Below are positions 5,989 to 54,143 of a stretch of 64,000 nt of DNA, piece by piece. The position numbers and the translations under genes are program-made. The notes under the pieces are model-generated. The model had not been told where the DNA came from and did not search any database. It worked only from the letters and a program-made list of their open reading frames with translations. The stretch spans positions 62,001 through 126,000 of the forward strand of contig CANNBJ010000002.1 in NCBI GenBank assembly GCA_947502835.1, in the 5' to 3' direction. This DNA comes from Bdellovibrionales bacterium. Lineage in GTDB: Bacteria > Bdellovibrionota > UBA1018 > CAIMNF01. Within the stretch, counting starts at the first letter, position 1. Every line of letters begins with the position of its first letter.

Positions 5989-5989
5989 T

Positions 5990-16933: not shown

Positions 16934-16934
16934 T

Positions 16935-16962: not shown

Positions 16963-17019
16963 ACTCGAGGGATCGGGTCGGATCTTAAGGAGAAGAAAAC
17001 CCATGAATGGAGGCTGACT

Positions 17020-19366: not shown

Positions 19367-19371
19367 GAAAA

Positions 19372-19546
19372 TGAAAGCTTGGGAGTACCAGCAAGACATT
19401 GGAGCCCCAGAATCTTACGTGGGCGCCGTATGCTCACTTTAGGCTTCCTACTCTGTGGCAGGCATGCTCACCATGAGACAGGCACAGCCCCCTGGGTCAA
19501 TGACTGTCGGGTCCAGATGTGTATTTAGACTGGACCCCCAAGCTGT
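19372..19546 (-). ncRNA. ssrS: Structured RNA, 6S RNA (SsrS) candidate
   Basis: The 398-base gap 19329-19726 has no convincing gene. On the minus strand it holds a sigma-70-like promoter and then about 170 bases whose ends pair perfectly (AGCTTGGG at the 5' end, CCCAAGCT at the 3' end), the usual closing stem of 6S RNA. Inside are paired CATTG/CAATG and CCCAG/CTGGG blocks and a hairpin GGTCCAG/CTGGACC. The apical part contains GGTGAGCATGC, then 13 bases later GGAAGCCTAAA; E. coli 6S RNA has GGTGAGCATGC and GAAGCCTTAAA at similar distance. 6S RNA binds RNA polymerase holoenzyme in stationary phase. The extra 5' hairpin is unusual for 6S, so the identity is tentative. Confidence 0.55.
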
Positions 19547-19551
19547 CTTTC

Positions 19552-25677: not shown

Positions 25678-25824
25678 CCCCTCTATATATATACGGATTT
25701 CCGGGGCGATGCCCATGATAATCATCTGATTTTATTTAATATTTTTATTCCATGGGAACCTCTCAAGTCCCCACGGAGGCATTCCGAAACGATCAACAGG
25801 CATATGAAGGTCAGGGTCGACACA

Positions 25825-25877: not shown

Positions 25878-28800
25878 TTGGGGGATGGCTTGAAGAGCGG
25901 GTTGCACAACAGATTTTCGGGAAGATCTCGTTTCGAGAAAGCACTTGGGTGCTTGGGCTTGGCCTTTCTTGTTTCCTGCAGCGGCACCGGCTACCAAGGC
26001 GGACGGATTCCGACCAACTTCAAGGGCATCAAAACCATTCGCGCAATTTCACCTGAACAGATCGAAATCACGTGGGATCCGTTTCCGGGCGCCATTGACT
26101 ACAAACTCTATACCCCGACATCGAACAATGCGGTTGGGACTGTTCCGGGGGGTGTCGCCACCTATCGGTTCAATCCATCGGCCCTGCGAATCCCGGGGGG
26201 CGAATCGGGGTACACCTTCAGTGTGACTGTGACCAACCCCTTGACCCGGAATGAGGAAGGTGATCGATCCGCATATCAATCCGTCTCCCTGCTTCCGCGT
26301 TTCAAATTCCTGAAACCCTCGACCACTCTCACTGCGATTCCAAATCAATCAAGCCTCAGGCTCACGTGGGAAGCCTATCCTGCGGTCACCTACAATATCT
26401 ATTATTCCGAGCGCTCCGCGAACGGGGAAATGCTGACCTATCCCTCGAACCGGCTCCCTTCCTCACCGAACGGAGGAACCTACACAGGCACAGGTGAAGC
26501 TACAATTCAGGGCCTCCTGCAGGGCAGGGACTATTGCGTGTTTGTCACTGCGAACTATCCCGACAATACCATGGACGCTCCCAACGGAGACAAATGGACA
26601 GCGCCCTTGGACAATCTGATTACCGGCCCAGGCAACTCGTTTCCCGGTAGCGTGGTTGCCGGATCTCAAATTTGTCAAAGAACGTTTGCAAATGAAGCAT
26701 TCGGACAAGTAGTCACAGACTCACGTGTCTATTCCCTGAAGGCCCATCCCAATAATGATCCGACTTTTGTCGCGCTCGCAAAGGGGGATGCGCCCCTTTC
26801 CTCCGAAGATGATGGTGATAATGCAATTCCTGCGAATGCGATATCGGCAAGGCTGACTGTTTATCGTGTGGACCAGACCACAGGGACTGGGATTGTGGTG
26901 GGCACAAGCATCGGATCCGGAAAGATCAAGCCAATTGCACCGATTCCACCAGGGCGTTACAAGTTCTTCGCGATCCTCGAGGAAATGAAACCGAATCAAG
27001 GCTCGACTCCGCCAGCACAAGCTCGAAAAGACCTCGTGATCGGTACCGGCGGTACGGGTGCCGAGTCGGATTCCTGGGTTTACATCCGGGGAGCACGAGC
27101 ATCCCCAGTCGATCCGGGAGTGTATCCGGATCATCAACAAGGAGGGGCAGGCTCGCTTCGAATCGGGCAAAGTGTCGCCATGGGTGACTTCAATTGTGAT
27201 GGCAAAAGCGATCTGGCCGTCGGAATGCCCGATGTCATCGAGGTTCCTGCAGGAAGCAACCCTCCAAGGCCCGCTAAACTGGGTCGCGTCGTGGTCTACT
27301 ACGATGTTTCCCAGGCTCCGGACGCAAGAGTAAACCCCACTCGAGTCCAAACAATACGATTCGACACCACCCAAGTCTCAACGATTGCGCGTGATCTCCA
27401 GCTGGGAACAAAATTACAAGTGGGCAACTTCAATGGTGACAATCAAGCCAGAAGCCTCGCGCCTCCCGGGGAATCCGGTCTGAAAGAAAAATTCGCTTGT
27501 GATGATCTTGTCATCGGATCCGGTGCCGGACTTGTTTTTGTCCTTTATGGAAGACGTGACAATGCGATGGGGGCTGGAATTCCAGGGGGATTGATCTACA
27601 ACGGGCCGAACTCCTATTCCGTGAATCCCTCAGCTCCGCCCTGCCAGGCAAACAATCAGTCCTGTGCCGGTCCAAGCATGTACAAATACGAAACGGTTGG
27701 ATCCGGATACCTCAAACTTGGGTCGGCTTTCACCGTCGGGGACTTTGATGGGGACGGCTATCATGACCTTGCGGCAAGTTCGACGCCAACATCCGGAATC
27801 TGGGTTCTCCGCGGGGGCGAAACCGGTCTGAATCTGCCAAAGAAGTATGACAGTGATCCTTTGGTCGCGACAAACCTTGAAGTGTTGAACCCCTACGAAA
27901 TCTCGTGTGAAAGCTGCTTGCCCTACATTCCTGCAAAATCATCCCATTTTTATCAGCCGCCCACCGGCCCCGCTTTCGGCCCTGCAGCTTCGGACGGATG
28001 GGCGAACGGCGGTGAATTCGGAATCTCTCTCGGAGTTTACCGGAATGCCTACTATGATCAGGAAACCAAACGAATGCGGGATGTGCTGCTGGTCGGTAAC
28101 TCCATGCACTCCCTGAGTGGAGGTCGAAAAGGCCGTGTCTTCGGGTGCATCCCGAAAACCGACCCGGATGCGAATGCGAGTTTTTCAACAGAGCCCTCGG
28201 TCGGCCTCCAGTGGGACTGCAATCACTTCATTGATCCTCCCCTGCAGTTTCAAACCCAGAGCACGCAAAACGTCAGCTCTCTTGCGACATCCAGCGTTGG
28301 AACCGCTCAGAGCTTCGGATGGGCGATCGCAGGATTTGAAAACCCCTTGCGCTATTCCGCGGGCGACCTGACTGAGCAGAGCGTATCACTTGCTGATCCC
28401 ACTTCAATGCGTTGCAGGCTCGTGAACGGAGGAAGCACCGTACCAGCTCCTCTTGGATTCGCAAACTGCCCGAATCAGATTGGCACGGCTCCTCTTGGCA
28501 ATAAGCTCGGGTTTCCGGGTGGATTTGCGGTATCATCCATGCGCTCGAACTCCGTATTCATGTATTTCGGTGTGAACTCTCCACCCGGCGTTTCGGGTGG
28601 AACTCGGGACGAATTTGGAGCTGCTAGAAACCAGGATCTCCTGAATCGCATTTTCGCGACTCCGACCGGGTTAGCAGGTGATCCCGTGGTCGCAATTGAG
28701 CAGGTCCCCTGTACCGTGTCTGGATCCACGGAAAGCTGCAGAGTCCAACTCATCAGACAAAATAGTCCGAGCGGTTATTTCGGCTATAATCTTGCTGCAA

Positions 28801-31259
28801 TTCTCGCAAGCAACATCTCGGATCTGGATGACAAGCCCAGGGGTTCGATTCTTGCGGTTTCAGCTCCATACAAAGCATTGTCCCAAGGCAGCATCACTTA
28901 TTCAGACGTTGGCCAAGTGCTGTTGATCTCCCAAGACACCGTGAACTCCACGTCACCGATTCTTATGAACGGGGTGAGACGGTTTGCGCGGGGTCTCCTG
29001 AGTTCGGGCGCGACACTGGACTACGATCGCTCCAACAGCGCTGATCCGAACACGGTGGTTCCCGGTGCCCGCTTCGGCATGGGAGGGATTGCCGGCGGTT
29101 CGATTGAGGCGGGAAATGGAGACGCCTACAACACCTACACCGATATCGTCGTGGGAGCACCGGGACACAAGCGCGCAGTCACTGTGAATGGCGTCTTTAA
29201 ATTGGTGAATGATAACGGTTCTGCGATGATGTATTTCTCCAACGGAACTTCGTTTCTGAATCGAAGGATTGCGGATTCAACCTCTCCATCCCCCTGGCAT
29301 TCGATTGATCAGGTGTATGAGGGAAATACTCCCGTGGGACAAGAATCCGACCTTAAGTTCAATCAAGCCGTTTCCATCGGGGATGTGGACCTTGATGGCA
29401 TCGATGACATTGTAACCCGGGTTTCAAGCGGCGGCTCGAAGAACCTGTCCCGCATCTACTACGGAGCCTCCTGTTCGAATCCGGCAACTTCTTCTTGCCA
29501 GGGACAATTCAAGAAAAACAACGATGGAAGCCTCAAATCCAGCGAGTTTCGGGTCTCGGGTGATGATTCGGCAGGCATCCGCTTCATTCCCGTGGGTCGA
29601 GTCGGGAATAGCACAAGAAACGCATTCTTCATTACCGGCGAAAGAGCATCTTACCTCTACTTCACGGATGTGAATAGCGGGATCGCCCTTGGCGATCCGA
29701 GCGTAAACGGACTTCCACGCAGGTTCTCAAGACCCTTGGTCACGAACACGAATTATTCTTATCTCGATTTTTCGGATAGCAGGTTTCTGAATGCGGACGG
29801 CGCATCCATCAGCCAGAGCCTCAGATCCCTGAACCCGTTTGCAAGTGGTGACTTCAATGGGGATGGCTACATGGATTTCGCATTCGGGCAGGACTCGAGT
29901 GCTGCAATCGAGGATACGCGTTCTCAAGCGACCTGCCCCCTCATTTCCGGTGAGCCTATTTGTTTTGCCGGTAATTCTGTCGGAAATGGCAGGGTGTTTG
30001 TTTGGTACGGAGGATCAGGCAACGGTCCAAGTGTTCAGCCGGATGCGCTCTCGGGCTACCCCTTGGTCACGGAATATTCCGGCTTGAGCGGAAGCGGCGA
30101 CAAGTTCGGAATCGCCACTCTCTCAAGCGTTTCAGGTCAAACATCGGAGTCTCCTTGCCTCCCGACCGGAGGTCTGACCTGCAAACGAATCCAGGTGATC
30201 GCCGAATCGGATACATCAGTTTTCGGGCAGAGTCTCGCGTCCATTCCCTTGGGAATGTGCGGACCAAACCCGGCCTCCGCTCTTGCAGTCAGTGCAAAAA
30301 GCTCGAACGGAGGGAATTCAAGAATTTTTGTGTACCTCCCCAAGTGTCTTCAGAATCCGGGCACGGACTTCTCCGGCCTGATCGCGACTGGCCTCTCCAT
30401 CAAATCCGAAGTGGAACTTTCAAGCTTCGAAAATTCCTCAGGACTCGGCTCTAGCATGGTTGGCACCGGCATGTCAGGTCCAGGGAAGATCATGAAACCA
30501 CCCTCGACTCCATCAGCATCTGGAGCTCTGCTCGGGCATCTGATCGCGGCTGATTCAAGTCTCGGGAATTTACTTGTGCTCCCCTTGATCAGAACCAGTA
30601 CTGGCACCATCGGATTCGAGCCGTTGCCGGGTTCCCTCACTGCATTCAACCCGTCTCTTGATTTTTTCCGATTCGGTGGAAGGGTCAATTCATACAATAA
30701 CACCACCCTGTTGAATCCTCTCAGCCCGACCGAAGCTGGTTTCGGCACGACCATTGCAGCCCTCGGGGATCTCAATGCCGATGGGTATGCGGACATCGGG
30801 ATCAATCTTGCAAGCATCCATCGGAAAGAGACCTCCTCGACCTATAATTATCAGGGGGGAATCATGGTGGTTTTCGGAGGGGAGAAAGGGCTCCAAACCC
30901 ATCGGGAATCAAGCAATCTCCTGATGACCCCGAAGAAGGAATCCGAGGCGCCGTGCTACTCGGTGAAACGTTCAACCTCGGCCATGCCGATAAGCGTATG
31001 CGACCCTCAGGTGATTTTTGCACCACAACCGGTCCTCACGAACTCGATTGGCCAAGGTGCCTATGAATTCATGTACCTGAACCCCTACTCTCAAATGTCG
31101 ACTGGGGCCAATTCCCAAACCGGTGCTTGCTCTGTGAATAATTCCAGGAACGAGTGCCTCGGATCGTTTGTCTTTGGTGTCCCCGGGAGGGACAGCCCCC
31201 CCACCAACAGCAATTTGAGTCGCATCCTGCAAGGAGGAGTGTTTTATGTTCAGCCATAA
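25878..31259 (+). CDS. Giant FG-GAP repeat lipoprotein 1
   Basis: About 1790 residues. A lipoprotein signal (LGCLGLAFLVSC with the acylated Cys near residue 34) is followed by GGRIPTNFKGIK and two fibronectin-III-like parts (about 45-270). From about 430 on there are FG-GAP/VCBS-type calcium loops: GDFNCDGKSDLAVG near 434, GNFNGD near 514, GDFDGDGYHDLAA near 620, GDVDLDGIDDIV near 1168, GDFNGDGYMDFAFG near 1323 and GDLNADGYADIGI near 1630, consistent with an integrin-alpha-like beta-propeller. Start codons available are TTG (25878, 25890, 25899); 25890 fits the GGGGG upstream. Surface adhesion or scaffold is inferred. The end overlaps the next giant gene. Confidence 0.85.
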   Translation: MGDGLKSGLHNRFSGRSRFEKALGCLGLAFLVSCSGTGYQGGRIPTNFKGIKTIRAISPEQIEITWDPFPGAIDYKLYTPTSNNAVGTVPGGVATYRFNPSALRIPGGESGYTFSVTVTNPLTRNEEGDRSAYQSVSLLPRFKFLKPSTTLTAIPNQSSLRLTWEAYPAVTYNIYYSERSANGEMLTYPSNRLPSSPNGGTYTGTGEATIQGLLQGRDYCVFVTANYPDNTMDAPNGDKWTAPLDNLITGPGNSFPGSVVAGSQICQRTFANEAFGQVVTDSRVYSLKAHPNNDPTFVALAKGDAPLSSEDDGDNAIPANAISARLTVYRVDQTTGTGIVVGTSIGSGKIKPIAPIPPGRYKFFAILEEMKPNQGSTPPAQARKDLVIGTGGTGAESDSWVYIRGARASPVDPGVYPDHQQGGAGSLRIGQSVAMGDFNCDGKSDLAVGMPDVIEVPAGSNPPRPAKLGRVVVYYDVSQAPDARVNPTRVQTIRFDTTQVSTIARDLQLGTKLQVGNFNGDNQARSLAPPGESGLKEKFACDDLVIGSGAGLVFVLYGRRDNAMGAGIPGGLIYNGPNSYSVNPSAPPCQANNQSCAGPSMYKYETVGSGYLKLGSAFTVGDFDGDGYHDLAASSTPTSGIWVLRGGETGLNLPKKYDSDPLVATNLEVLNPYEISCESCLPYIPAKSSHFYQPPTGPAFGPAASDGWANGGEFGISLGVYRNAYYDQETKRMRDVLLVGNSMHSLSGGRKGRVFGCIPKTDPDANASFSTEPSVGLQWDCNHFIDPPLQFQTQSTQNVSSLATSSVGTAQSFGWAIAGFENPLRYSAGDLTEQSVSLADPTSMRCRLVNGGSTVPAPLGFANCPNQIGTAPLGNKLGFPGGFAVSSMRSNSVFMYFGVNSPPGVSGGTRDEFGAARNQDLLNRIFATPTGLAGDPVVAIEQVPCTVSGSTESCRVQLIRQNSPSGYFGYNLAAILASNISDLDDKPRGSILAVSAPYKALSQGSITYSDVGQVLLISQDTVNSTSPILMNGVRRFARGLLSSGATLDYDRSNSADPNTVVPGARFGMGGIAGGSIEAGNGDAYNTYTDIVVGAPGHKRAVTVNGVFKLVNDNGSAMMYFSNGTSFLNRRIADSTSPSPWHSIDQVYEGNTPVGQESDLKFNQAVSIGDVDLDGIDDIVTRVSSGGSKNLSRIYYGASCSNPATSSCQGQFKKNNDGSLKSSEFRVSGDDSAGIRFIPVGRVGNSTRNAFFITGERASYLYFTDVNSGIALGDPSVNGLPRRFSRPLVTNTNYSYLDFSDSRFLNADGASISQSLRSLNPFASGDFNGDGYMDFAFGQDSSAAIEDTRSQATCPLISGEPICFAGNSVGNGRVFVWYGGSGNGPSVQPDALSGYPLVTEYSGLSGSGDKFGIATLSSVSGQTSESPCLPTGGLTCKRIQVIAESDTSVFGQSLASIPLGMCGPNPASALAVSAKSSNGGNSRIFVYLPKCLQNPGTDFSGLIATGLSIKSEVELSSFENSSGLGSSMVGTGMSGPGKIMKPPSTPSASGALLGHLIAADSSLGNLLVLPLIRTSTGTIGFEPLPGSLTAFNPSLDFFRFGGRVNSYNNTTLLNPLSPTEAGFGTTIAALGDLNADGYADIGINLASIHRKETSSTYNYQGGIMVVFGGEKGLQTHRESSNLLMTPKKESEAPCYSVKRSTSAMPISVCDPQVIFAPQPVLTNSIGQGAYEFMYLNPYSQMSTGANSQTGACSVNNSRNECLGSFVFGVPGRDSPPTNSNLSRILQGGVFYVQP

Positions 31260-34200
31260 AGTTGTTTCACTCCAAAGCATACTATATTCTTTCATCGCGT
31301 TTCTACTCGTCTCCTGTTCTTCGGATGGTCTGCTCGGCGGAAAAATTACGGCAACATTTTCAGGGATCAAATCGGTGCAGGTTACGGGACCCGAGAGCGT
31401 CCTCATTGATTTCGTCACCGACCGTCGCTGCACGAGCTATCAGATTCTAAAGCTTCCCGAGCTCACTCCGGTTCAGACGGCTACGCTTCCACCAGTGAAA
31501 CTGAAGGGTCAAAGCCAAGGAATCTCCCCCTCGCAAAATTACAATTTCGCGGTTTCTTGTGTCCAGGGATCCGAGTCGATCGGCCTGGACAAGAGCCTTT
31601 CCGCCACCACTTGGAACCATTTTGACGGAAGATTGAATCCGACGGTGGACCAGCCTGATGGAAGCTTCGAGGTTTCCTGGAATTATTTTTCCGATCCATT
31701 GATCAAGTACAACGTTTATGCCCGTGAATTGTCGGCAAACACGGGGAATTCTTCAAGCCTTGGCACGCTTCTGACAGGATGTGTGGTCCGTGCGGGGACC
31801 AACAAAGTCACCATCGGGTCTCCGGACTGCCCGATCGCAGGGAGCGCTTTGAAGGCCGGTTCAATTTACGAGTTTCGGGTTGTTGCCGTCTATCCTGATG
31901 AGACCGATTCCCGCCCCCATCATTTGATGGTGGCCCCGGAATACGCTGTAATCAGGCCGATTTCCTCCAATTTTGATCTTCCGAATTGCACCCTGAGTCC
32001 ACTGGGCCTGGGAGCGGATCAGAACAGCGCCATTCTCACCCTTCGTTGTTCTCCGCCCATCAGTGCAAGTACGGGCTGCCCTCTGAATTACTTGTCCGTT
32101 CTCGCAAGGCAAGACGGTAGAGTTGTCTCACAAGGAAGTGTTTCCATGAATTCGGACGGCTCAACGATCCTTGAAATCACCCCACTCACAGACCAAAGCG
32201 GTACAGGGAACGATCGAATCGTCAAGGATCTACAACTTGAGTACACCTGCACCTCCAGCGGATCTCCCCAGCGCTCCACCGTTCGCATCGACTCCAACCA
32301 ACCCGCATTGAAGTATCGTAGCCTTACACGAAAATACGAATATGCCCCGGAGCAATCTTATCAAAGGAATCCGGCTTCCGGAGACACGAGCATTGTCGCT
32401 CCGAGTGCCCTCGGAAATGCCGTTGCGGTCGGGGACTTCAACTGCAACGGGAAGCCCGATCTTGCCTTGGGACTTCCGCGAATCACATACAATCTCGCCC
32501 CCTATTTCAACCAAACCCCCGAATCGGGCGCAGTGAAGATTTACTATGACTACGCAAGCGAGCAGGACTCTGGTCAAACCTTGCCTGTGAGCTCTGCAAG
32601 TGTTTCCATACTTTCATTCAAGGACCTGAATCAGGGCGCCCGTTTCGGCGCATCCCTCGCCGCCGGAAACTTGAATCGTGATGTGAGCCGTGGTCCCGGC
32701 GGTCCTCCCGGTACCGACGTCTTCTTTAGCTGCGACGACCTGATCGTGGGCGCACCCAATGACGGTTCGGGGGGCGGTGCGGGTCGAGCGTTCATTTTTT
32801 ATGGTCAACCTGGAGGAATTTCAAACTCGACGAATCAAAACATTTCGGATCTCCGCTCTAATCAGCCTACCTGTAATGGAGATTTCGACAATTCGAGCTG
32901 CACTCCGGTGGCTCTGGTGCCGAATCTGACGACCCACTTCGGAGTGGATCCTTATTTCACCCAGAGCAATGCGGGAAGTAGCACATGGAATCAGAATAAG
33001 AGTTTCTTTGGCTTCAAGGTTTCTTTTGTCGGGGATTTTACGGCGGACGGTTACGGGGATATTGTGGTGACCGACCCGAACTGCTCTTGGGATGGCCCCA
33101 TCAATCGCTCTGTGATTGATGGTTCGACCAACAGGATGCCGGGCGTGGGTTGCGGATACCTTTTCTTTGGCGGTCCTAACGGAGTTCGAAACGATCAGTT
33201 TGTGGGCAATGTTCCGGATTCAACCGTATCCAACCTGCCTGCCGGAATTCCCCAGGACGGTCGCCTCTTGGTGCCCTTCGTGAAATTCTATCCACCCATT
33301 CCGCAGGCAAATATGCATTTTGGCGCAAGTATCTCCTCAGGGGCTGAAATTGATGGTCGACTCCCGGTTCAGATTCCCATGCCCGGACAAGGCCTCATTC
33401 TTGCCTCAGGCAGTGACTTTGTGATCGGTGCTCCCGATTTCGATTATGATGCAGGATTCAGCTCACAAGGCAGCTATCCCAATATCCCCGGATGGAATTC
33501 TCAATTCACTGACTCCGTGGTTTCCCCGGATACTGCTACGGGTGCAAACACGAGGAAATTCACAGCCCCCTTGAACAAGGCATGGGCTCCCTCTGCGGAT
33601 TGGAAGCAAATTCCGATTCCCTCCTCAACCGCATTGAAAAATAGCACCGGGATTGCCTTCGCATATTTCGGCAGACATTCATTCAAGAATTACTTGCTTG
33701 GTCTTGACTCCGTCGATTCGGTTAAATTCCCCTCAGGCGAAGTCTCTTGCACTAGTTGCGCATCCGATCGCATGAAAGGAATGCAGCTCACCAGTCAGCT
33801 TTCCTTGAACATCCGTGACCGCCGAAACGGAAGCCTGAATTGGAGCTCCATGTCAGCGGCCGCTCAAATTCTGAATGACCCACTCCTGAACCCGGTTTCA
33901 AATTTCTTCAATTGTGGTTCAAGAGGAGCCACCAAAACCCCGTTGCAAAGAACGAATTCCTCGGGGTACTACTACGAGCATCTTTCGTGTCTTGCAGGAC
34001 GGAATAATTTTTCCGTGATCTTCCCGGATCTCAAGGACAACGACGCTTCCATTTCACAGTTCGGCTCGGAGGTATCGGTTGCGGGCACGAAAGAAGAAAA
34101 CGCCATCGCGCTATTTAACATTGCAACATCCAATCCATCCAATCTCACGGGAGACTCATTTAAACTCAACGACTCGAGCAATGCCCAGGGAGATCTCAGC

Positions 34201-37200
34201 TCCCGAGTCGTATACAATCCTCAAAACAAGGTTCACTTCAGAATCAAGGGAAGTCCGCTTTGGGAACTGGCTGTTCCCGGGTTCCACTACACTCCAGGAT
34301 CAGGCGAAACATTTGATTCAGTCAGCGGACCCTTCCCGATCAGAAGAGCCCCCATTTTCGAGGAATTGACGTCCACTGTCCCAACGGGATCCGATCTGTC
34401 CATCACCCCCGGTGAATCCATGGAACAAAACGATATCAATCGGGACGGATATGCGGACATCTTGGTCAGTTCCGAACCCGTTGGAAGCTCCTCAGGTTCA
34501 GTCGGCCCGGCAAGAATCTTCACTTATTTTGGAAATTTCGCCGGGGACTTTTCGAGTACCGTAAACTACCCGCCGGCCGAATCCCGATTCCACTCCAACG
34601 CCTCGTGCAGCGTTACAGTCGATTCGACCAATGTAAACACACAGACTGTGCTTTCGACGGGAAGTATTTCAAACCCCGGTCCTTTTTCTGTATTTGACGG
34701 AAGGAGTCTTTCGGAGCTCAAAGATTCTAATCCACAACAAACCCGGTTCTTCACTCTCAACGCAAGATTTCCCTATACGCGCATTCCGGGCGACAAGGAG
34801 TTTTTTGCAACACTAGATGGTCAAAAAGGTGGTGGATCTCTGGATCTCGGTATTGTGACACGAAGCGGGGCCGTCGGGCAGTCGTGCAAGCCGCAGATGA
34901 TCACCCATTTTTACGGGCCTGCTTCTTCTCTTTCCACCTCCGACTTGGACCGCGACGGCATGAGCGATCTTTTGGTAGGATTTTCCTCCCATGACAGCAA
35001 CCGCGGGTTGGCGAAAGCACATTTGTCCTCCGTGAACTCGGCATCGGGCTTTGCAAAGACGGGTCGGGGAATCGGATCTGGTGCAGAGTTCTCTGGCGAC
35101 CTTCCGTTTTCGAAAATGGGATCCGCCGTGGCCGCAGTCAACTGGCTCTTCAGACCCGTGATCAGCAGCAGCAGCATCAATATTTACGATGAGATCCACA
35201 GGCGAGATGCGTGGGTGGGTGCGAGCGGACGGGATAATGGTGCGGGAGCAATGTTCGATTTCAAGGCCTCCGGGTATTCTCAGTCTAACGTTTCGTCCCA
35301 ACCTGCAGCCGGAACCCCTTTGTTGGACAGCTCGAATACTCCAAACAATCTCAACGCCGAACACTCACGGGTGATCGGTGACGTCAATGGTGATGGAAAA
35401 GAAGACATTCTCACTCCGGTGCTGAGACGAGATTCTCAGGGGAATGTATTTTATGATGCGATCCTGTATTTTGGTTCCGCACTCGGGCCGATCACGAATT
35501 CCTATTGCAAACAACTCATTGGGAGCCTCTCGCTTACCTCGACCGGCGGTGGTTCTGCGCTGTCTCCCTCTCTCTGCCTTGGCACACCAACCCCCCCGGT
35601 CGCCTATCTGAATGGAACGGCGGTACCCCTTCCCCAATATCTGAGCCGGCCGACGGGGGTCGGGACGAGTTGGTCCATCTATGCTTTTCCGGCCGGGGAC
35701 GTGAACAAGGATGGAAACGACGATGTGGTCGCGTTCGATTCCTATGCTGCGACAAGCAAGCTCTACCTGTTTCCTGGTTATGCGGGCGGACTGGATGTTT
35801 CCATCCCGACCAAGGCGGACAACAGCTTGCATGCACAAATCGTGACTGAACAGTCAGGTGTCGGTGGATCTGCCTATGATGCCAATCTAATCTCGAATGC
35901 ATCCATATATCAAAATCTCCCGGTCCGGCACGGAGACTTCAATGGGGACGGCTTTGAGGATCTTGCTGTCGGGAACAGCGGCTCAACCAGTCCAAAAGCA
36001 AAGTTGAATCAGAGTTCCGATAACAAGGGCTGGCTTTGCTCCGCCGCATACCTCGACACATTACAGACAAATGAGTTCACCAAGTATTGCAGAGACGGGG
36101 ACGGGGTACCCGGACACGGGTCTGTGACTGTATTCTACGGCGGACCTTATGGATTCCAGGCGCCCTTGAGTGGCGACTACGGATTGAGTCAAACCCCTCG
36201 GTGTGATCATTTCTATGGAACCTGCACCGAAGGGTTCTCCTCCAAGGTAAAGGGTGTTTACGGGTCTCTGGTTCTCGGGAGCAACAATGCATACTCCTAT
36301 GACTCCGCTGCAGTGACATGCTCGCCCGGAGTCAGCGGTGGTCCGGCAAATTGTGGAGAGAGCGCCACCCGAATCCTGAACCCGCTGTTCTATAATATCG
36401 AGGATTCCTTCCTGAGCATGCAAAGCCTTGGATTCGGCGACTCACTCACCGTGGGTGACTTCAATGCGGACGGAATTGACGACCTTGCCGTGGGGATGTC
36501 TCGGTACTGGATCCCTGACTTCCACAAAACCGCTTTCAAGAACACAGTGGATCCAAACATGCGGAATTTCGGAAACCTCTCCGGCCAATCCACGATTCAA
36601 GATACTGCTTCTAAGGGATCCGTGTTCATCTACTACGGCTCACCCCGGGGGGTTCTGGCACCAAAAGCAAGGGAGATGGTCGCAGACTACGGCTTGGCGA
36701 TCGACTCATCGAAAAATTCTTTGCCAAAGCCCGTATTTGCAGTGTCGCCACCGGTGTGGACCGTAACCGATGCATCAGGAGACGCAACCACCGCACCGAG
36801 GCTCGATCAACATCCGATGGCCGGAAGAAGATATTTTGCCTCGAACCTGGCAAGTGGCGACTTTGATTCAATCAAAATAAACGGAAAAATCGCCTCTGAT
36901 CTCGCCGTAGCATCCGGCAATGGCCAAATTTACATCTACTACGGACCCCTTTGCGCGGCAGATAATGATCCAACGAACTGGTATCAACAAACCTACAAAT
37001 ATCCGAAAGTCGCTCGAACATCCGAGATTGCACTTTCAAGCGGCTCTCAAGCAATTGATATGAATTGCACCGTTCTCAATATGAATACCCTTTCCGCCTC
37101 GCCGACGGATGCGCGAATCTCCGTAAGCAAGCCGATCTTACCGCAGTTAATTGATTTATCGGACACCATCACTCCATCCCATGCACTTGGGACCACCCTT

Positions 37201-37713: not shown

Positions 37714-37747
37714 GTGAAACCGAGGAATGGAAAGGGGGAGAAAAGAC

Positions 37748-40700
37748 GTGAAAATTTTGGTCGCAATTCATTCACATTTTCTGCGAACCCTTTTGATTTT
37801 TGGCGTGATGACATCAGGCCTGGTGTCATGCACCGGAGGTGTCAAGCCTCTTGCCGTCAACAGCGGGGGGATGAAAATCACCCCGGGGGATTCACTCGTC
37901 CTCGACTTGGGTGGCATTCGAGAGCTTGATATCAGAAATTTCCGGGTCAGCTTGCGCTCGATAGATCCGAACTTCAAGAATCTCACGCCCTTTCATGATG
38001 TGACTGAGCTTGCAAGGAGCGCTTTGGCCGAGGATAAAACGAACCTCGATCTAGTCCTTCCGAAGAGCGTTACGCCGAGTCGCCCCTTTCTCGTGGTTGT
38101 CGAACTTTTGGACCTCGAGGACTTCCTGATTGATGCAATCTTTACCGGAACTACTGCGACAAGGCCTGACATCAACTCCACCCTCGCCTACTCGCTCCTG
38201 GAATCCTACAATTCCGAATTGAATCCGAAACCTCTTTCAAAATATTCGGATTCACAATTCTCAGGGCTCAAGAATCTGATTCGAACGAAAACCAACCTGA
38301 TGCTCAGTCAATCCGAACATCTAAGCCTTTCATCGGTTCCTTTCGACAAAGTCTTGCGATTTTTCAAAAACGGAATGGCATTCAACCCCTCCTTCCTGAC
38401 TCTTGCCCAGAACCATGGAGTGGGCTTCCGTGCCGTGCCGGAATCTATGCTCGCGGTCCTGGGAGTTACCGCATCGGCAACCGCCGAGAACTCACTGGAG
38501 AGCTGCTTTAAAGGATTTTGCTACAAATACCCAACTGCATTTGAAGTGCAAAAGGCTGACGGCGGATGGATTCCGGCACCTCAATTGCCCTTCAAACAGA
38601 ATTCAAATAACCCGGCACAGATCCTCCCTGGCTCAGCGAGTCCCGATCCAGCGCTTGGTTTGATTGCAATGGAAGGAGAGGGAACGCCCGCAACTCCGAA
38701 ACTTGAGATTGCCGCAACAGGGTATGATCAGGATGACGATTATTTCGAGAAATCGATTCGGGTACGGTACACTCCCCGGATTCTTCCGACCTCTCTGACC
38801 TTGAAACCCGGATTCAATCAGGAAAAACAGGAGGAACTCCCTCAGGATTTTTCTGTCAGCACATCAGGAAATCTCGAGGAAAGTGATCGCTATACTCTTC
38901 TTTCGATCGGATTTCACGAGGCCCTTGATACAGCCTCCCTTGATTCGAGTCGATTCCCCGAGTGCTCCACTCCCGGAGCCTGTCAAACTGCGATTCGAGA
39001 CGTGTTTTTCATGTATACGGACGGGATGGCTTGGGTGCCGTATCGATGGCAGTTCCGTTATCAGGATCTTGCAAGACCTCCGTTTTTCATCAAGGATCAA
39101 AGCCAGAGAATCAACTCCGACCACTTCAATGCAGCCTTGCAGGCCAAGTATCAGGATGCACCGAACCCCCTCACACCGGAATGGCGTGTCCATGACTCTC
39201 ACTGTGAAACCGATCCCACCGCAACTCCCCCCAATAGTCCGATCCAGAACTTCTATCAGCAGATTCAAGGTAAAGGTGACGGCCCCTGGAGCTGTGCCTT
39301 CAAGGTTTCCGATCCTGACCTCAACGACGATCCGAATGGCGCGTTGGATGTGATTCACCTTGGAATTGAAGCGGATGACTTCACCCAGATTTATCTTGGT
39401 GCCAAGCTCGATTCCACGAATTCGGCTGCGTTCAGCACATCCTCGGGCGATATTCCGCTTCTTTTCAATGAGGGAAATGCCTTCTCACTCATGAGCGCAC
39501 AGGGTCAGCAAACGGGAGCTCCCACCTTGCTCTCACCTCCCTTGCCACCCGCCAGCGCGACATCTCCGATTCGCCTTCAGGCGATGACAATGCTGGAAGG
39601 TGAGGCTCAGTGCGGAGGCCACAAGAGATGTGCCGCCGGGCTTGCCCAAGTCGTGATTGACAATGCGGTCAAGGTGGCTGCTGAACAACAAGCAAACCAG
39701 ACTTTCACCTTTTCCCTTGTGGCTCATGATTCAAAGGCGGGAGGCCGATCTATGAAGCATGACGTGAGTCGGGGGATCCTATTCAAACCAAGGGCTCCCC
39801 TTCTCATCAATTACTCCAGTGTGACCCCGCCCCAAGGCGCGTTTCAACTCGAGGACCTGATTCTCAATACCGAGAATCAGCAGGTCCCCGCACGACACGA
39901 CATTCATCTCTCGGAGATCATGTCGCTCGCCAAGCACGCATCGAGCACAAATGCGAGGGATATCGGTTTTGATCCCGAACTTCTCATCGGTCAGGGCAAT
40001 CGAGACGCATTTCAGCTTACAGACGCTCTCCAAAACCCCGTCCAAATGAGTCCCTACCTTACACAACCACGGACGCTTTGCGCGAATCCAGATTCGACGG
40101 ATGATGGAAAGAATTGTCGTGGCGCTTTCGGAGTGCAATTCCAATTCCAAGAGGCGATCAATGGAACCCCCGGCCATCTCGTCAAGCTCGGCAGTTCACT
40201 CCGAATGCTGGACAGAGCTCAATATGTCTATCCAAGGGAGTTTGATTTCGCATGCAATCTCCCTGAAAACAATATCGGGAAGGATTCAAGCGGGCAGATC
40301 ATTTGGGATCAACGTTCGGTAAACGGCGGCTACCTCAGTGAGTCCCTGCCATCCGGAACCCCTGCCTCCAGAGTCAATCCCTCTCTTGGGGGTTGGACTT
40401 TTGAAATTAACATGATCGACCCCGACAATCTTGATCTTCGATCAGGCGAGCCTTCCGATCCAGTACTGGCACGAAAGGACCCGATCCTTACGAATGTTGC
40501 CCATAACGGCAGTATTTTCTATTGCATCCCTCCCAGACCGAATCGCAGCAGTCTCTACTATGAGACTTATTCTGCTACGAATTCCGCAGCGAACAACGGG
40601 ATTGACCCGGATTCCTGCACCGAATGGAGCCCCTCTCCTCCCCTCGAAATGCAGCCGATCCCTGTCTATTACACAGGAAGCGACATCAGCGGTCCGAAAA

Positions 40701-43700
40701 TCAGAAAATTGGTTTATCATCGCTTGCGAGGGCGATGGATGCCTCAAGATCAAGGGCGATCTGGAAAGCTCGACTCACCTGATCCGGCGGGTGTCATCAC
40801 GAATGCATTCACAAGTTTCAAAATTCACGGAAACGTTTTCGACATCAAAGAAGATACAAGGGATCTCACCGAACCCCGCCTCATCGAAAATGTGAATGGG
40901 GCTCCCAAGGCCACGAAAACGAATCCAATTTTGTTCGCAGCAGAGAGAAAGGAGATGCTTCCTTGTCTGTCAGGTCCATTTGCAGGGACAGACAACATCC
41001 TGATTCAGTCCGAAGGGTCGATAAACTCCTCGAGAAGATTCAAGGTTGCAGATACGAATCACACAAATTCCAATTCATTGGGACTCTCCGGCGCCATCTC
41101 GGGAAGGTATGAGGCAGAATTGGCTCTCTTGGGGACCCGAAATCTCGGTGATTTCGAGCTCTTGAAATTCATTCCCTACCTCAATGATTGCACGGCGGAG
41201 GAAACCCGTGACTATGCAACTGCGAGCATTGTCTATGAATTTGCTGGCATCCCTGGCGCGAGCAGCTATTCAATTGAAACCCAAGATCCCACTGATCCAT
41301 CAGGTGCATGGATCAACCGGGGGACTGTGCCAAGTCCAACGTTCTCACTGCCAAACGTCCCCGCATACAAGTCCTTGCGATTCAGGAACACCCCCAACCT
41401 CTCTCCCCCTTTGGTTGGCACAGAGTCCATCCCTGTCACCCTTCAGGCAAATCCAATGCCAGGTCCCGTTTCACTTTCCCAATCCCAGACCCGGACCCCG
41501 GTTCTTTACAGTTCGACTGTGGATGGCACCAATCCCCGAATCCGGTTTCGCTCTCTTTTGAATCACGCCCCGGGAATTTTTTCGTCCTCCTTGAATGGAA
41601 ACTTCTGTCTCAATTTTCAATCCTATCCCTTCGTTACTCCTACCGGGGCATTGACCACGGTATGGCGGTTAACCCGAAGCAATCCCGAGAATCGAACTCA
41701 GGTCGTCTTGAGCTCTCCTCTCATCGAGAAGTGCACCGGTTACAAGTCCCTGGTCATGGAACCTGAATACAAATCCATGGTTTTGGGAGCGATCGGGACC
41801 GGTGCCGACTGCTCCTTTGCATTGAACCAGGTGGTTGCAAGTTTTCAAGGACTTGGATCGAACGATCCGAATGGACCCACGGACATCGAAGCAAGAGTGG
41901 TCTTCAAGATCGATCCTTCACTCCCTGAGTTCGGGAAGCTCTCCCATATGAACTCGACCCCCCCCTTGGACCCCCAGCTTTTCGATCTTTTCTGGTTTCC
42001 CGGTCTCTACGCGGCTGATCTCAAGGCCACTGTTCCCAGAACCAATGGTTTCGTCACGACACATTATGTTCCCGATGTAGATTCTCCATCGGGACTTTTC
42101 TTCAAAGCATACCCCATCAATACATTCTTCTATGACGGGAACTCAAGCTCTCCCACATTCGGGCGTTCCACTTATGCAGGATATCGTGTCAGTCCTCGAA
42201 CTGATACGCCTGATCTGTTTAACCAGAACTCCGGTCCCATCCCTGATTTCACGGGGGTTGATCCGAACAAGGAGTACAGCATTTCAATCCGCGGGGTCGA
42301 TTTCGATCACAAGCTGGAATACACTTCGATTGCATCACCGTCGCCCGATCTTTCAGCCTCACCCGCTCCTTTGAACTTTTTTCGTAATCGTCCGGCACCA
42401 AATGGAGAGACCAAGGCAATCCAAGTTTTCGCATGGCCCCCGCTTCCGGGCTCAGGAGAAACCCGATTGGTCGAGTTCCCCATCACCGCCTCCGATCGCG
42501 CCATCGGGAGAGCAGAGAGGGACCCATATGACGTGTTTTCCTTCGCGTTTGCGACCCCATCTCCCGCTCCTACAAGCGTTCCATCGAGCCCGCCCGCTTT
42601 GTCCGGTTGGGGTCTCCGACCGGATTGCAGCTCTCCCCCCGCCCAATTTCCACTCCAGTCACTTTTGCGATTGGATTCTCTTGCGGATTTCAAGAAGTGT
42701 AAAGTCACTTGGAATCAGCGCGAACAAGATGCGGGGAAAAGATTCGATTACCTCATCCGCGTACAGGACAATATCGGTGCAGATGATACTGTGACCCCAA
42801 AAATCCTGGGTCTCGGCGCAAGGCACCCATCGGGGTCAACCAGCTTAAGCCTTACCTTCCGATACAATCCCCTCTCTCCGGGAGTCATTCTGGTGGCCAA
42901 CACCACTCCCACGGTGCGTTTCACAGTGGATCCAGCCGATGGACCTCTGCCTGGAACAACCTTGGACGACACTCTTCCCTCCTGCGCGACCTCGAACATT
43001 TGCTATCGGAATCGCGCTTGGGCCACCGTCCCTGCACAAAGCTGCAATCACACGACCCGAGTCTGCACCATCAATGTCAGCCAGCAATACAAGCTCCATT
43101 TCATTGAAGTCAGCCGACAGGTCAGAAACCTTGCCACAAATACGCAATCCACCCTTGTAGAAACCCGGGAAGAACAACCCACTCCCTCCTTTGATGGAAA
43201 CTCGGGTTCCCTTACGAATGGACCTCTCGATGTGTTCAATCTTGAAATTTACAATTTGGAGCACAATAAGGCGCCATATTTCACGAATTCCTCAGGCAGT
43301 TCTTTGACCAACGCGACATACTCTGGCCCAGGAATCGGGAACTGGGGCGCAATTCCCCTTCCCCAAGGGTGCGCGAGCGGCGCGGGAAGTGGTTTCAACT
43401 GCAATCTGCAGGTCAGAAACGGTGACACCCTGTGGAATACTCCGGGTTCACCCTCCGCACAACCCACGCCCTACCAGCTTCAGGAGCGCTCGACCCCTTA
43501 TACTGATTTTTCAATTCATGTGCGAGATGTTGCCAATCAGCCAGCACTTCAAACCATCACACTGACACGTCCTTCGCAAGTTCTGATCCTGGATGGTCCA
43601 TATGCGGGCTTGACCTATTCCGTTCCTTCTTTCTCCAATTCATCCCTTTTGAACTGGTCCCAGAACGGCTCGAACGGTTCGGCGATGGGACGTTTTCAGT

Positions 43701-46700
43701 GGGCTCCAACGGATTTAGAGGCTCATATCCTGTCGAATCCGGGAGGGTTCCTGATTCCGATCAAAGCAAGCGATTCGGCGTATCACCCGATGTCGGGGGA
43801 GGTCGGATTCCCGAGCCAATTCACCGTTCCATCCAAGGAAAGCACGATCTGGATTTGGTGCAGACTCAGCGTCGTGAACAATGCCCCTCTTGTGCAGTAC
43901 ATGATTCCACCCTCGAGTCCTTCCGGAACACCCACGTGGAGCAGCTTGGAAAACGCAACCATTGAAGTAAGTACCGGGGTGACAAACACGATCACCGTAC
44001 GGGCGCTCGACCCGGACGTGACCCGTTATCGCCTGATTCCTTCTGAACGAATTCTCGGATTCTTTCCATCCTCGCCCTTAACTGGAACCGCAACCGCTTT
44101 CATGTCTGCCGCGACGCCAGGTGCACCCGCGGGCAGCCCGAATGAAAGTTCGCCGACCGGCGTTGCCCAAAATCTTATTCTCAGCGCGATCCCGACCAAT
44201 TCGAATTTGGGTTCATTTACAGGAACGATCAGCGTTCAGGATCCGGGAGACCCATCTTTAGGACTGGCAATTCTGCCGAATTCCACAAACCCTCCCCGCG
44301 CAGGTCTTTCAAATCCTCTCACCAACGTGTCATTCAATATCAATGTGGTTGGAAGGCCCTACTTCATTGTCCCTCCTCTTGCCTCACCTCCCTCTCAAAC
44401 ACCCGCGCGAACCTATTCAGTCAAGGCATCAGGCGCCACCTCTATCTTCGACTATCCGCTTGCGCTTTTCGTCTCAAGACTCTCTGATCGCAACACCCCC
44501 GGACAAACGAAAAAACCCCACTTTATCGGAGTTCAAATCAAGCCCGCTGTAATGCCCGCCACGATGATTTCGAATTCCCCGACCGGACGTGGATTCCGCG
44601 TGAACCAGGATTACGTATTGAAAGGGCGCTTCAACGTGGAAGATCTGCCGGGGGATCGGCTCGTCACACTGGGATCGGTTCCAGAAACGACGGATTTGAC
44701 GAGGGGCTGCACTGCTACCACTTCCACTGATGCAGCTGTGCTCTCAAACAACAGTATTGTTGCAAGTCTGAAACGGGTAAGCGACTCCGGGGTGGTTGAA
44801 TACTGCAACCTGACTTCGGCGAATGTGAACAATGTGCTGTCGCAGGTGAGCTTGACCCATACCCTCCTGGATGGATCAAGTTCGCAAAATTTTTTCAATA
44901 CTTCCGCTCTGAACTTTGCTTCAGCAAAGCTTGATCGCACCATCGCGGTATCGGATTTGTCATCAATCAATACGGAGTTTCTCGATTTCTCGAAGCGTTG
45001 TACCGAATTTTGCACCGGCACGCCCACTGGCAATGGCGGCTTCACCCTGAGTTCGGGGGAAATTGCCGGGAACTCCACACCAACCCCGGGATTTTCACCC
45101 ACCTTGTCCTACGGCCCGAACTCAAACGGCCGGGGCGCGGTCTTCAACATCAACGACCAGAATGTCGCAACCAAAACATATACGGACCAACTCCCCCAAA
45201 CCAACTCTGTGATGAACAGTTTTGTTTCAAAAGGTGAGCAGCTCGCTTTTGCCGTGCAGCTCGCTAGCCCACCTGCCGCACCCGGGGTTCAGGCGCGTTG
45301 GTATGTCAATGGATGCCTTAAAAAATCAGAACCGGTAACTCCGTCAACCCAGACCCTGAGCTACAACATGTCTGTTCCTTCCACCGGGGGCGGACTCAAC
45401 AATGACTGCTCGGGACAGTATTCCCGATTCGTGAGCGGAGGGGGATTCCTGATGCTGGGGAGGGCGACGAGGGCCAATTCGGATGGAGGGTACCTCGGCG
45501 ACCTGATGGTTCAACTCGTGCTCGCGAATCCGTCGGAAACCATTTCCGCCGCCACGGATGGAAGTTCATCGAAGACCTATGCATTCCACATGAATGTAGT
45601 GAACACGATCCCCAGAATCATGACAGAAACAGATCAACGGATCCGTGCCGCACCGATTACCGTCCCTTCGACCTCCACCAACCCGCTTATCACAAGTGCT
45701 CCCAACGGCATTCCCTCCAAATTCATGCTCTCCTTTGATGCGGGTGTCTCTTCCATGTATGCCTATGTCGGAAGAAATTTCCTGAGCGGGACCGCCGCAG
45801 GCAATCCCTACACTGCTGGTACCTCTGTCCATGTCCGTGAGTTCAACGTGGATGGAGGAGCGGCTCCCTCTCCAGCTCCGAATAGTAGGGATTTGTTCTG
45901 CAACGGGTATAACTATGCACTTTCGAACGGTGATCCAAACCAATTCATGTTTGGCTTGGATGCAAGCGGAGGACTCTCCAATCTGAAAATAGCAACCTCC
46001 ACCTACGGGGGCACGGGTACAATGACGAGCGCCTATCCCACCGGAACCGGTCAGATTCTCGGCTCGCGCAACACCTCTTGCTACTTTGAATTCTCGAGTC
46101 AAACTCAAGGAACCAGCGCGGGAAGCTCTCTCGATACTTCGGGGGCAAGAAGCGGTCAGATTCTTGCGTATTCCCCGCACCGGCTCGGGAGCAGGGGAGC
46201 AACGATGTGGACGCCTTCTTCGGGCGGTACCGCATCTTTCTTCATCGAAGGAATCAAGGCTCGCAGCCTGTTCTGGATGAACTCTTCCCCGATGGCAACG
46301 GCACCAAACATTTATGCCACTCTTCCCTCAACACTTGTCGCCTTTGCAAACAACACCATTTTGAAATCCCTCACCATCCCGGGCACGGATCGCTTGATCC
46401 AACTGGTCGGTTTGAGAGAGGGCCAATTCAGCAACTATCAGGGTGCGGTTTTGGTTTCCAATCTTTCCGGCCCAAGCGGAACTTTGGTCGCAAGTCTTCA
46501 AGAGGAAATCTCTTTTGGCCAGAACGGGTGCACGTTTCAGGGCGCCGACAAAACCTATCCGATCGATGCGGTATATAGCACCACTGACGACATTCTGTTT
46601 CTCGTCGGATTGGAGCTTCCTGATTCCGGTGCGGCCGTTGGCAAGCTCTTTGAAATCCGCAACTTCTTGAATCCAACCGGAACCAATCCCCGTCAGTGTC

Positions 46701-46990
46701 GCCTCGCAGGAAACCTTCTTGCCCCCTCCCGTGAAGTTCGAGTCCACAATCCATCGAACCTTCGACTCGCCGTGGATTCCCGAAACGGGGTGCTCTGGGG
46801 AACAAGCTCCGGCATTGCCTCAGGCGCGGGTCAGTTCTTCAATTACGACTACCGAAGCAAACGTCCGGTCTACACACTCCCTCTTGAGTTTGAGCCGGGC
46901 CCCGTTCTCCACTCCCCCCTCATCAATGGGATCCATCTTTTGAGCCCGGGCAGTGGAACCACTGTTCCACGAATCCTGCGAGTTTGGTAA
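37748..46990 (+). CDS. Giant lipoprotein 3, about 3080 aa
   Basis: One of the longest genes likely in this genome. The GTG at 37748 is preferred: it has GGGGGAG nine bases upstream and gives a compact lipoprotein signal (TLLIFGVMTSGLVSC); an ATG at 37727 adds seven residues but has no well-spaced ribosome site. After the Cys comes GGVKPLAVNSGGMKI. The body is Ser/Thr/Pro/Asn-rich, repeated beta-sandwich-like sequence with phrases such as VRALDPDVTRY and FTGTISVQDPGD that recall cadherin- or Ig-like domains in secreted proteins. No FG-GAP loops were seen. The last 350 residues look like a distinct beta-propeller-like end. Function unknown; same operon as the two FG-GAP proteins. Confidence 0.8.
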   Translation: MKILVAIHSHFLRTLLIFGVMTSGLVSCTGGVKPLAVNSGGMKITPGDSLVLDLGGIRELDIRNFRVSLRSIDPNFKNLTPFHDVTELARSALAEDKTNLDLVLPKSVTPSRPFLVVVELLDLEDFLIDAIFTGTTATRPDINSTLAYSLLESYNSELNPKPLSKYSDSQFSGLKNLIRTKTNLMLSQSEHLSLSSVPFDKVLRFFKNGMAFNPSFLTLAQNHGVGFRAVPESMLAVLGVTASATAENSLESCFKGFCYKYPTAFEVQKADGGWIPAPQLPFKQNSNNPAQILPGSASPDPALGLIAMEGEGTPATPKLEIAATGYDQDDDYFEKSIRVRYTPRILPTSLTLKPGFNQEKQEELPQDFSVSTSGNLEESDRYTLLSIGFHEALDTASLDSSRFPECSTPGACQTAIRDVFFMYTDGMAWVPYRWQFRYQDLARPPFFIKDQSQRINSDHFNAALQAKYQDAPNPLTPEWRVHDSHCETDPTATPPNSPIQNFYQQIQGKGDGPWSCAFKVSDPDLNDDPNGALDVIHLGIEADDFTQIYLGAKLDSTNSAAFSTSSGDIPLLFNEGNAFSLMSAQGQQTGAPTLLSPPLPPASATSPIRLQAMTMLEGEAQCGGHKRCAAGLAQVVIDNAVKVAAEQQANQTFTFSLVAHDSKAGGRSMKHDVSRGILFKPRAPLLINYSSVTPPQGAFQLEDLILNTENQQVPARHDIHLSEIMSLAKHASSTNARDIGFDPELLIGQGNRDAFQLTDALQNPVQMSPYLTQPRTLCANPDSTDDGKNCRGAFGVQFQFQEAINGTPGHLVKLGSSLRMLDRAQYVYPREFDFACNLPENNIGKDSSGQIIWDQRSVNGGYLSESLPSGTPASRVNPSLGGWTFEINMIDPDNLDLRSGEPSDPVLARKDPILTNVAHNGSIFYCIPPRPNRSSLYYETYSATNSAANNGIDPDSCTEWSPSPPLEMQPIPVYYTGSDISGPKIRKLVYHRLRGRWMPQDQGRSGKLDSPDPAGVITNAFTSFKIHGNVFDIKEDTRDLTEPRLIENVNGAPKATKTNPILFAAERKEMLPCLSGPFAGTDNILIQSEGSINSSRRFKVADTNHTNSNSLGLSGAISGRYEAELALLGTRNLGDFELLKFIPYLNDCTAEETRDYATASIVYEFAGIPGASSYSIETQDPTDPSGAWINRGTVPSPTFSLPNVPAYKSLRFRNTPNLSPPLVGTESIPVTLQANPMPGPVSLSQSQTRTPVLYSSTVDGTNPRIRFRSLLNHAPGIFSSSLNGNFCLNFQSYPFVTPTGALTTVWRLTRSNPENRTQVVLSSPLIEKCTGYKSLVMEPEYKSMVLGAIGTGADCSFALNQVVASFQGLGSNDPNGPTDIEARVVFKIDPSLPEFGKLSHMNSTPPLDPQLFDLFWFPGLYAADLKATVPRTNGFVTTHYVPDVDSPSGLFFKAYPINTFFYDGNSSSPTFGRSTYAGYRVSPRTDTPDLFNQNSGPIPDFTGVDPNKEYSISIRGVDFDHKLEYTSIASPSPDLSASPAPLNFFRNRPAPNGETKAIQVFAWPPLPGSGETRLVEFPITASDRAIGRAERDPYDVFSFAFATPSPAPTSVPSSPPALSGWGLRPDCSSPPAQFPLQSLLRLDSLADFKKCKVTWNQREQDAGKRFDYLIRVQDNIGADDTVTPKILGLGARHPSGSTSLSLTFRYNPLSPGVILVANTTPTVRFTVDPADGPLPGTTLDDTLPSCATSNICYRNRAWATVPAQSCNHTTRVCTINVSQQYKLHFIEVSRQVRNLATNTQSTLVETREEQPTPSFDGNSGSLTNGPLDVFNLEIYNLEHNKAPYFTNSSGSSLTNATYSGPGIGNWGAIPLPQGCASGAGSGFNCNLQVRNGDTLWNTPGSPSAQPTPYQLQERSTPYTDFSIHVRDVANQPALQTITLTRPSQVLILDGPYAGLTYSVPSFSNSSLLNWSQNGSNGSAMGRFQWAPTDLEAHILSNPGGFLIPIKASDSAYHPMSGEVGFPSQFTVPSKESTIWIWCRLSVVNNAPLVQYMIPPSSPSGTPTWSSLENATIEVSTGVTNTITVRALDPDVTRYRLIPSERILGFFPSSPLTGTATAFMSAATPGAPAGSPNESSPTGVAQNLILSAIPTNSNLGSFTGTISVQDPGDPSLGLAILPNSTNPPRAGLSNPLTNVSFNINVVGRPYFIVPPLASPPSQTPARTYSVKASGATSIFDYPLALFVSRLSDRNTPGQTKKPHFIGVQIKPAVMPATMISNSPTGRGFRVNQDYVLKGRFNVEDLPGDRLVTLGSVPETTDLTRGCTATTSTDAAVLSNNSIVASLKRVSDSGVVEYCNLTSANVNNVLSQVSLTHTLLDGSSSQNFFNTSALNFASAKLDRTIAVSDLSSINTEFLDFSKRCTEFCTGTPTGNGGFTLSSGEIAGNSTPTPGFSPTLSYGPNSNGRGAVFNINDQNVATKTYTDQLPQTNSVMNSFVSKGEQLAFAVQLASPPAAPGVQARWYVNGCLKKSEPVTPSTQTLSYNMSVPSTGGGLNNDCSGQYSRFVSGGGFLMLGRATRANSDGGYLGDLMVQLVLANPSETISAATDGSSSKTYAFHMNVVNTIPRIMTETDQRIRAAPITVPSTSTNPLITSAPNGIPSKFMLSFDAGVSSMYAYVGRNFLSGTAAGNPYTAGTSVHVREFNVDGGAAPSPAPNSRDLFCNGYNYALSNGDPNQFMFGLDASGGLSNLKIATSTYGGTGTMTSAYPTGTGQILGSRNTSCYFEFSSQTQGTSAGSSLDTSGARSGQILAYSPHRLGSRGATMWTPSSGGTASFFIEGIKARSLFWMNSSPMATAPNIYATLPSTLVAFANNTILKSLTIPGTDRLIQLVGLREGQFSNYQGAVLVSNLSGPSGTLVASLQEEISFGQNGCTFQGADKTYPIDAVYSTTDDILFLVGLELPDSGAAVGKLFEIRNFLNPTGTNPRQCRLAGNLLAPSREVRVHNPSNLRLAVDSRNGVLWGTSSGIASGAGQFFNYDYRSKRPVYTLPLEFEPGPVLHSPLINGIHLLSPGSGTTVPRILRVW

Positions 46991-48649: not shown

Positions 48650-48683
48650 AGAGTTTTACCGGTTGTCTGCGATACTAGGGAGC

Positions 48684-54098: not shown

Positions 54099-54143
54099 AG
54101 TACCGAAGGTCTTTGGACGATAGGCCGTCAGGAGGCTTTGATC

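Follow-up and report, generated by a model that had tools for sequence, protein, structure and literature searches.

Three giant lipoprotein genes of Bdellovibrionota share a conserved module with a putative flagellar-type rotor and its stator

Several described systems resemble the locus analysed here in part. The bacterial flagellar motor contains FliG with its middle and C-terminal domains, the RBM3 ring domain of FliF, and a stator of MotA/PomA and MotB-OmpA type. The Agl-Glt machinery of Myxococcus, together with CglB, joins an ion-driven motor, of TolQR/ExbBD type and devoid of FliG, to periplasmic parts, outer-membrane proteins, a VWA protein and surface adhesion; in the GldLM-T9SS gliding of Bacteroidota an envelope motor is coupled to large surface adhesins (PMC13104615). 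For Bdellovibrio, a 2026 review regards the gliding machinery as unidentified, and its motor, adhesins and force transmission as a major open challenge (PMC13104615). Here we analysed a window of 64,000 nucleotides from a Bdellovibrionales bacterium (G000:C2:62001-126000; genome of 2.73 Mb in 8 contigs), and found that its three consecutive giant lipoproteins, P1, P2 and P3, belong to a conserved 13-gene module in Bdellovibrionota. Besides the three giants, this module encodes a VWA protein with a MIDAS motif, a TPR lipoprotein, three small barrel-like proteins, MotA, MotB, two proteins of the inner membrane, and a protein in which a FliF RBM3 domain, a transmembrane (TM) helix and FliG are fused. 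The motor genes start about 2-3 kb downstream of P3 and were not remarked upon in the original prediction, an earlier description of the giants made from the letters of the stretch. In the window, the genes in question are arranged as follows:

23006..24403, minus strand: secreted VWA-domain protein with an intact MIDAS (DxSGS...T...TDG)
24400..25725, minus strand: OMP1, secreted, with a probable C-terminal outer-membrane barrel, divergent from P1
25878..31259, plus strand: P1, giant lipoprotein of 1793 aa, FnIII-like N-terminus and then FG-GAP propeller repeats
31246..37713, plus strand: P2, giant lipoprotein of 2155 aa, FnIII-like domains, predicted integrin-alpha-like propeller at about aa 381-1099, second FG-GAP-rich half at about aa 1160-2155
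37727..46990, plus strand: P3, giant lipoprotein of 3087 aa, without assignable family, weak Ig/PKD hints in orthologues
47000..47983, plus strand: membrane-anchored helical protein, fast evolving, placed after P3 in the window's genus and starting 10 bp past it
47954..48649, minus strand: OMP3, small secreted barrel-like protein ending in Phe-Tyr, in nearly all module loci
48663..49301, plus strand: OMP2, small secreted barrel-like protein, in most module loci
49347..50324, plus strand: FliF-like partner with a signal sequence, a periplasmic domain paralogous to that of the fusion, a TM helix and a cytoplasmic tail
50321..52150, plus strand: FliF(RBM3)-TM-FliG fusion of 609 aa, putative rotor
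52173..52985, plus strand: MotA-type stator subunit, closest solved relative PomA
52989..54098, plus strand: MotB-type stator subunit with plug and OmpA peptidoglycan-binding domain
54138..55022, plus strand: TPR lipoprotein with a PEGA-like N-terminal part, the best-conserved accessory gene

The explanation that we favour, with a probability of about 0.58, is that the giants would form the outer portion of a dedicated machine that spans the envelope and is based on a spare motor of flagellar type; the output of this machine would be surface adhesion, slow surface movement or force at prey contact, and not swimming. The linkage on which it is based was observed directly. Among 368 Bdellovibrionota genomes the fusion was present in 26, and the P2 profile (threshold E 1e-15) was found in 28, or in 26 after the removal of G101 and G104, where proteins of ~836 aa gave generic FG-GAP matches (E 5e-16). 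Trio and fusion occurred together in 25 genomes (Fisher p 2e-36, uncorrected for kinship; the significance is overstated, as relatives are not independent observations). The two exceptions are compatible with broken assemblies: in G001, which has the motor without P1/P2 matches, the motor contig ends inside a P3 homologue, and in G008, 87% complete, the contig begins inside P1. The relatives of the motor genes come from metagenome-assembled genomes (MAGs) labelled Bdellovibrionales, Bdellovibrio, Oligoflexia or Proteobacteria.

Synteny extends over the whole block within the window's genus. Furthermore, the trio and the motor lie in one cluster at every locus long enough to tell, and the gene order differs between families. 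In G015, from a different family of the same order, the trio and motor contigs overlap end to end over 278 bp (96.4% identity) inside the VWA gene, and the resulting array is P1-P2-P3-OMP1-VWA-MotA-MotB-OMP3-TPR-OMP2-(253 aa)-FliF'-helical-fusion, with all genes on the same strand apart from OMP3. Since the linkage survives rearrangement, a joint function is suggested, and this is our main argument. Within the genus, identity is 31-40% for P1-P3, 79% for MotA and 76-83% for the TPR lipoprotein; such fast evolution of the giants compared with the motor fits exposed parts.

These data also bear on the possibility that the giants are passive lipoproteins for the recognition of prey or surfaces, standing next to a motor by chance or co-regulation and without any mechanical meaning. 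Integrin-alpha-like propeller and FnIII domains fit ligand binding, and the carriers include predators; the earlier expression "predatory-type bacterium" suits the relatives, which are Bdellovibrionales and Oligoflexia MAGs, and the carrier G190, presumably B. bacteriovorus HD100. However, co-occurrence in 25/27 genomes, together with a linkage kept through rearrangement in several families, is hard to explain without joint function, and we consider this explanation improbable. The original prediction had proposed prey or surface recognition, or a long envelope scaffold. The propeller and the synteny support part of that proposal, but a passive role is incomplete, because in the module the trio is accompanied by a putative rotor, the FliF-FliG fusion, and by a dedicated MotAB pair.

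The open reading frames of P1, P2 and P3 are adjacent on the same strand and sum to 7035 aa; the genes of P1 and P2 overlap by 14 bp, and a 13-bp gap separates P2 from P3. The P1 gene has no ATG start, the candidates being the TTG at 25878 or nearby TTGs, so that its exact start is uncertain. In each giant the signal sequence ends in a lipobox, LVS-C, which is kept by pattern in most orthologues with intact starts, and in more of them by eye. In enterobacteria, an Asp after the lipobox Cys decides the membrane in which a lipoprotein is placed, and its absence fits the outer membrane. None of the three giants has Asp at +2, so their placement in the outer membrane fits this rule. The signature GG-(R/K)-I-x-x-x-F-x-G-I-K after the Cys is present in both P1 and P2 and is kept, slightly relaxed, in relatives. 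The giants contain 28, 33 and 38 Cys, respectively. Several genera have the triplet with its internal order unchanged, from which it follows that the reading frames are not a chance effect. Three consecutive giant lipoproteins of about 7,000 residues, with a signature common to the first two, had been described in the original prediction, and both points were corroborated. It had also proposed a search for orthologous triplets and held that missing synteny would speak against it; triplets were found, and their synteny is strong.

As for domain content, FG-GAP (PF01839, Pfam cut-off 22.1) matches P1 with 84 bits in 5 stretches and P2 with 109 bits in 9 stretches, in agreement with the FG-GAP-type loops claimed earlier for the first two giants. 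Both also show a weak fn3 match. The fold itself comes from prediction: residues 25-1200 of P2 were modelled from a 21-sequence alignment (mean pLDDT 67, pTM 0.63), and the top Foldseek matches of the model were human fibronectin FnIII tandems and integrin alpha headpieces (E ~1e-9 to 1e-8). Against integrin alpha-V, VIA-align gave Z 17.7 over 288 residues at 3.5 A and 20% identity, an alignment spanning model residues 357-1075, that is, P2 aa 381-1099. Thus, the predicted order from the lipid anchor is FnIII-like domains followed by one integrin-alpha-like propeller, and the earlier claim of such propellers on lipoproteins holds for P2 at the level of predicted structure. The second half of P2 holds most of the remaining FG-GAP motifs and is probably, judging from its sequence, a second propeller. 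P1 shares the architecture of P2 by sequence.

The likeness to the integrin alpha headpiece could extend beyond P2, since a VWA-MIDAS protein, with its MIDAS residues kept, lies in the same cluster and recalls the alpha/beta pair. Unlike the integrin, P2 is lipid-anchored, has its FnIII domains N-terminal and is only ~20% identical; a pairing with the VWA protein is putative. P3 is different: Pfam gave no FG-GAP in it, and neither Pfam nor PDB assigned a family to the window protein. Its supposed Ig/cadherin-like nature found weak support in single, weak Big_9 and PKD_4 matches among 12 orthologues, and none from Pfam in the window protein. Lectin matches for P3, at E 0.02-0.05, were judged to be due to chance.

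The 609-aa fusion consists of a signal/TM segment, a periplasmic domain, a TM helix and FliG. It matches solved FliG at E 1e-19 and TIGR00207 at 3e-10, well short of what this model demands of true flagellar FliG. Foldseek searches with its AlphaFold model retrieved FliG (3e-8) and, for the N-terminal part, many entries of FliF RBM3 rings (probability 1.00, E ~0.02), both falling in one chain. The periplasmic part of the model runs helix, strand, insert, strand, helix, strand, as RBM3 does, its insert being helical where FliF has the beta-collar. When residues were mapped by eye, nearly all of the 24 fusions had a basic residue at the position of E. coli FliG R281 and an acidic one at that of D289, and 23/24 no longer had the FliM-binding EHPQ motif. 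We did not encounter a full FliF (RBM1-3) separate from FliG in the module, which has a single RBM3-like domain fused to FliG. For the MotA, the match to PomA covers the full length (1e-31). In the MotA tree the module proteins cluster on short branches; given long branches elsewhere in the tree, their monophyly is tentative.

Other FliG-like proteins were also observed. One of 770-905 aa lies beside a MotA paralogue at G009:C1:16773-18295 and G015:C85:5180-7288, and proteins of this size also occur in trio-less relatives, which suggests another non-canonical FliG-MotA unit. In addition, a stand-alone FliG C-terminal domain protein of ~146 aa (G000:C1:80695-81093) is present in most genomes of the genus.

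Could the module be a flagellar accessory? In this case the fusion, MotAB2, the barrels and the giants would build an additional structure (ring, disk or sheath) around the polar flagellum, with the giants coating or bracing the sheath or the motor. MotAB is of flagellar type, and a canonical flagellar FliG is present in all module genomes of sufficient completeness. Of 30 genomes checked, 28 have a canonical FliG elsewhere; G281 and G006 have no full canonical FliG match, in incomplete assemblies. The flagellum would thus possess a FliG of its own, a point that speaks also for our favoured explanation. Moreover, three tandem flagellin genes (window 14954-17853), 60-75% alike and kept in the genus, lie 8-11 kb upstream of P1. 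Nevertheless, the module-less relatives G004, G007 and G012 keep a full canonical FliG, so the module is dispensable for flagella. The fusion duplicates the rotor and does not extend it, the EHPQ motif is lost in 23/24 fusions, and FliF is cut to a single domain, in contrast to the flagellar motor. Furthermore, no axial, rod, hook, ring, filament or export gene domains were recognised among the module proteins. We therefore regard a flagellar accessory as unlikely, although it is the alternative that we take most seriously.

Several observations weigh against our favoured explanation. The strongest is the work of Morehouse et al. (2011), which, by its title, reportedly credits all three motAB pairs of B. 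bacteriovorus with a contribution to single-flagellum motility; this also favours a flagellar accessory. All sufficiently complete module genomes are also flagellate, and no module-bearing genome without flagella was found among the carriers (G281 and G006 being incomplete); independence of the module from the flagellum is thus tentative. Many relatives lack the module. Finally, B. bacteriovorus holds four Agl/Glt-like gliding clusters (PMC12546842, PMC3539863), so that the module is not needed to explain gliding.

It should be noted that part of this module would already have names in Bdellovibrio. We infer that the carriers G190 and G196 are B. bacteriovorus HD100 and Tiberius. G190 has three MotA-like stators, at 0.13, 2.92 and 3.17 Mb, the module pair being that at 2.92 Mb. 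As locus tags follow chromosome order, this pair would be motA2/motB2, whose tags in HD100 are Bd3021/Bd3020 (PMC11323537). Two FliG copies have been counted in HD100 (PMC3539863), of which the second most likely corresponds to the fusion. Several TolQ-type genes of G190 lie outside the module, and this genome has no second close homologue of the module VWA protein, so the module is distinct from the published gliding clusters. Among the HD100 locus tags tried, only Bd3020/Bd3021 were mentioned in the Bdellovibrio literature, as motAB2; a search for FG-GAP with Bdellovibrio returned only an unrelated protease survey, and we found no literature connecting the trio, the fusion and the stator genes.

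If the envelope-spanning machine exists, its operation could be imagined as follows. The peptidoglycan-anchored MotAB stator would draw on the ion gradient to drive the FliG ring; in the periplasm, FliF-like, VWA and TPR proteins would relay this movement to the barrels of the outer membrane; and the giants, fixed to that membrane by their lipid anchors, would be moved or tensioned against the substratum or a prey cell. Compared with Agl-Glt, the likeness is functional: the module MotA is a full-length PomA match and there is no AglRQS-type motor, Agl-Glt has no giant propeller lipoproteins, and any homology of the VWA protein or the barrels to CglB or Glt is conjectural. In contrast to GldLM-T9SS gliding, no Gld, Spr or T9SS proteins were recognised in the module, the giants are lipoproteins and the rotor is of FliG type. 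The module MotB also matches ZorB models (4e-16); Zorya defence was rejected, as MotA has no ZorA match, ZorC, D or E were not recognised, and a FliG rotor is present.

The motor might instead serve envelope maintenance or secretion, as in Tol-Pal or GldLM, by assembling, secreting or positioning giants that act as an envelope scaffold and not as adhesins. The OmpA-type peptidoglycan anchor, the TPR lipoprotein, the several barrel-like proteins and, in the window's genus, an S8 protease are compatible with this role, and the Cys-rich giants fit an oxidising compartment. However, neither a secretion channel nor a Tol-like partner could be recognised among the module genes, and the integrin-like head argues for binding. 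We give this explanation little credit.

Going further than the surface machine proposed above, we tentatively consider a bolder version: a non-flagellar rotary machine, in which a fused FliF-FliG rotor with its own stator would turn or pull an integrin-like head (lipid-anchored propellers with a VWA-MIDAS partner) as a force-generating adhesion organelle of Bdellovibrionota, directed at surfaces or prey, motAB2 of B. bacteriovorus having long been assigned to the flagellum. We know of no FliG-type rotor outside flagella, and the module would be the first, if this is true. A motor working without a flagellum would show the re-use of the flagellar motor and be categorically new, and integrin-like propeller and MIDAS modules may then work under motor force in a bacterial system. 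This compact gene set, counted so far as flagellar (second FliG, motAB2), offers candidates for motor, adhesin and force transmission in a genetically tractable predator.

Regarding regulation, sigma-70-like sites numbered 3, against 0.4 expected, at the divide between OMP1 and P1, and were at chance level elsewhere; promoter and terminator scans gave nothing decisive. Searching the window and the locus of G190 against Rfam revealed no riboswitch for cyclic dinucleotides and only a 6S RNA, at window 19371-19548 on the minus strand (RF00013, 63 bits). Farther upstream, the transketolase reading frame (window 5675-8641) has ~330 extra N-terminal residues lying over a minus-strand TolQ/ExbB-type gene (~5990-6595), and its long start is probably wrong. 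Downstream of the module, three genes were found only in the window's genus:

55091..56983, plus strand: secreted protein of unknown function
56980..58338, plus strand: protein of unknown function
58301..61024, plus strand: secreted S8 subtilase, possible processing protease

In that genus, the products of these genes (55091-61024) could take part in the processing of the giants.
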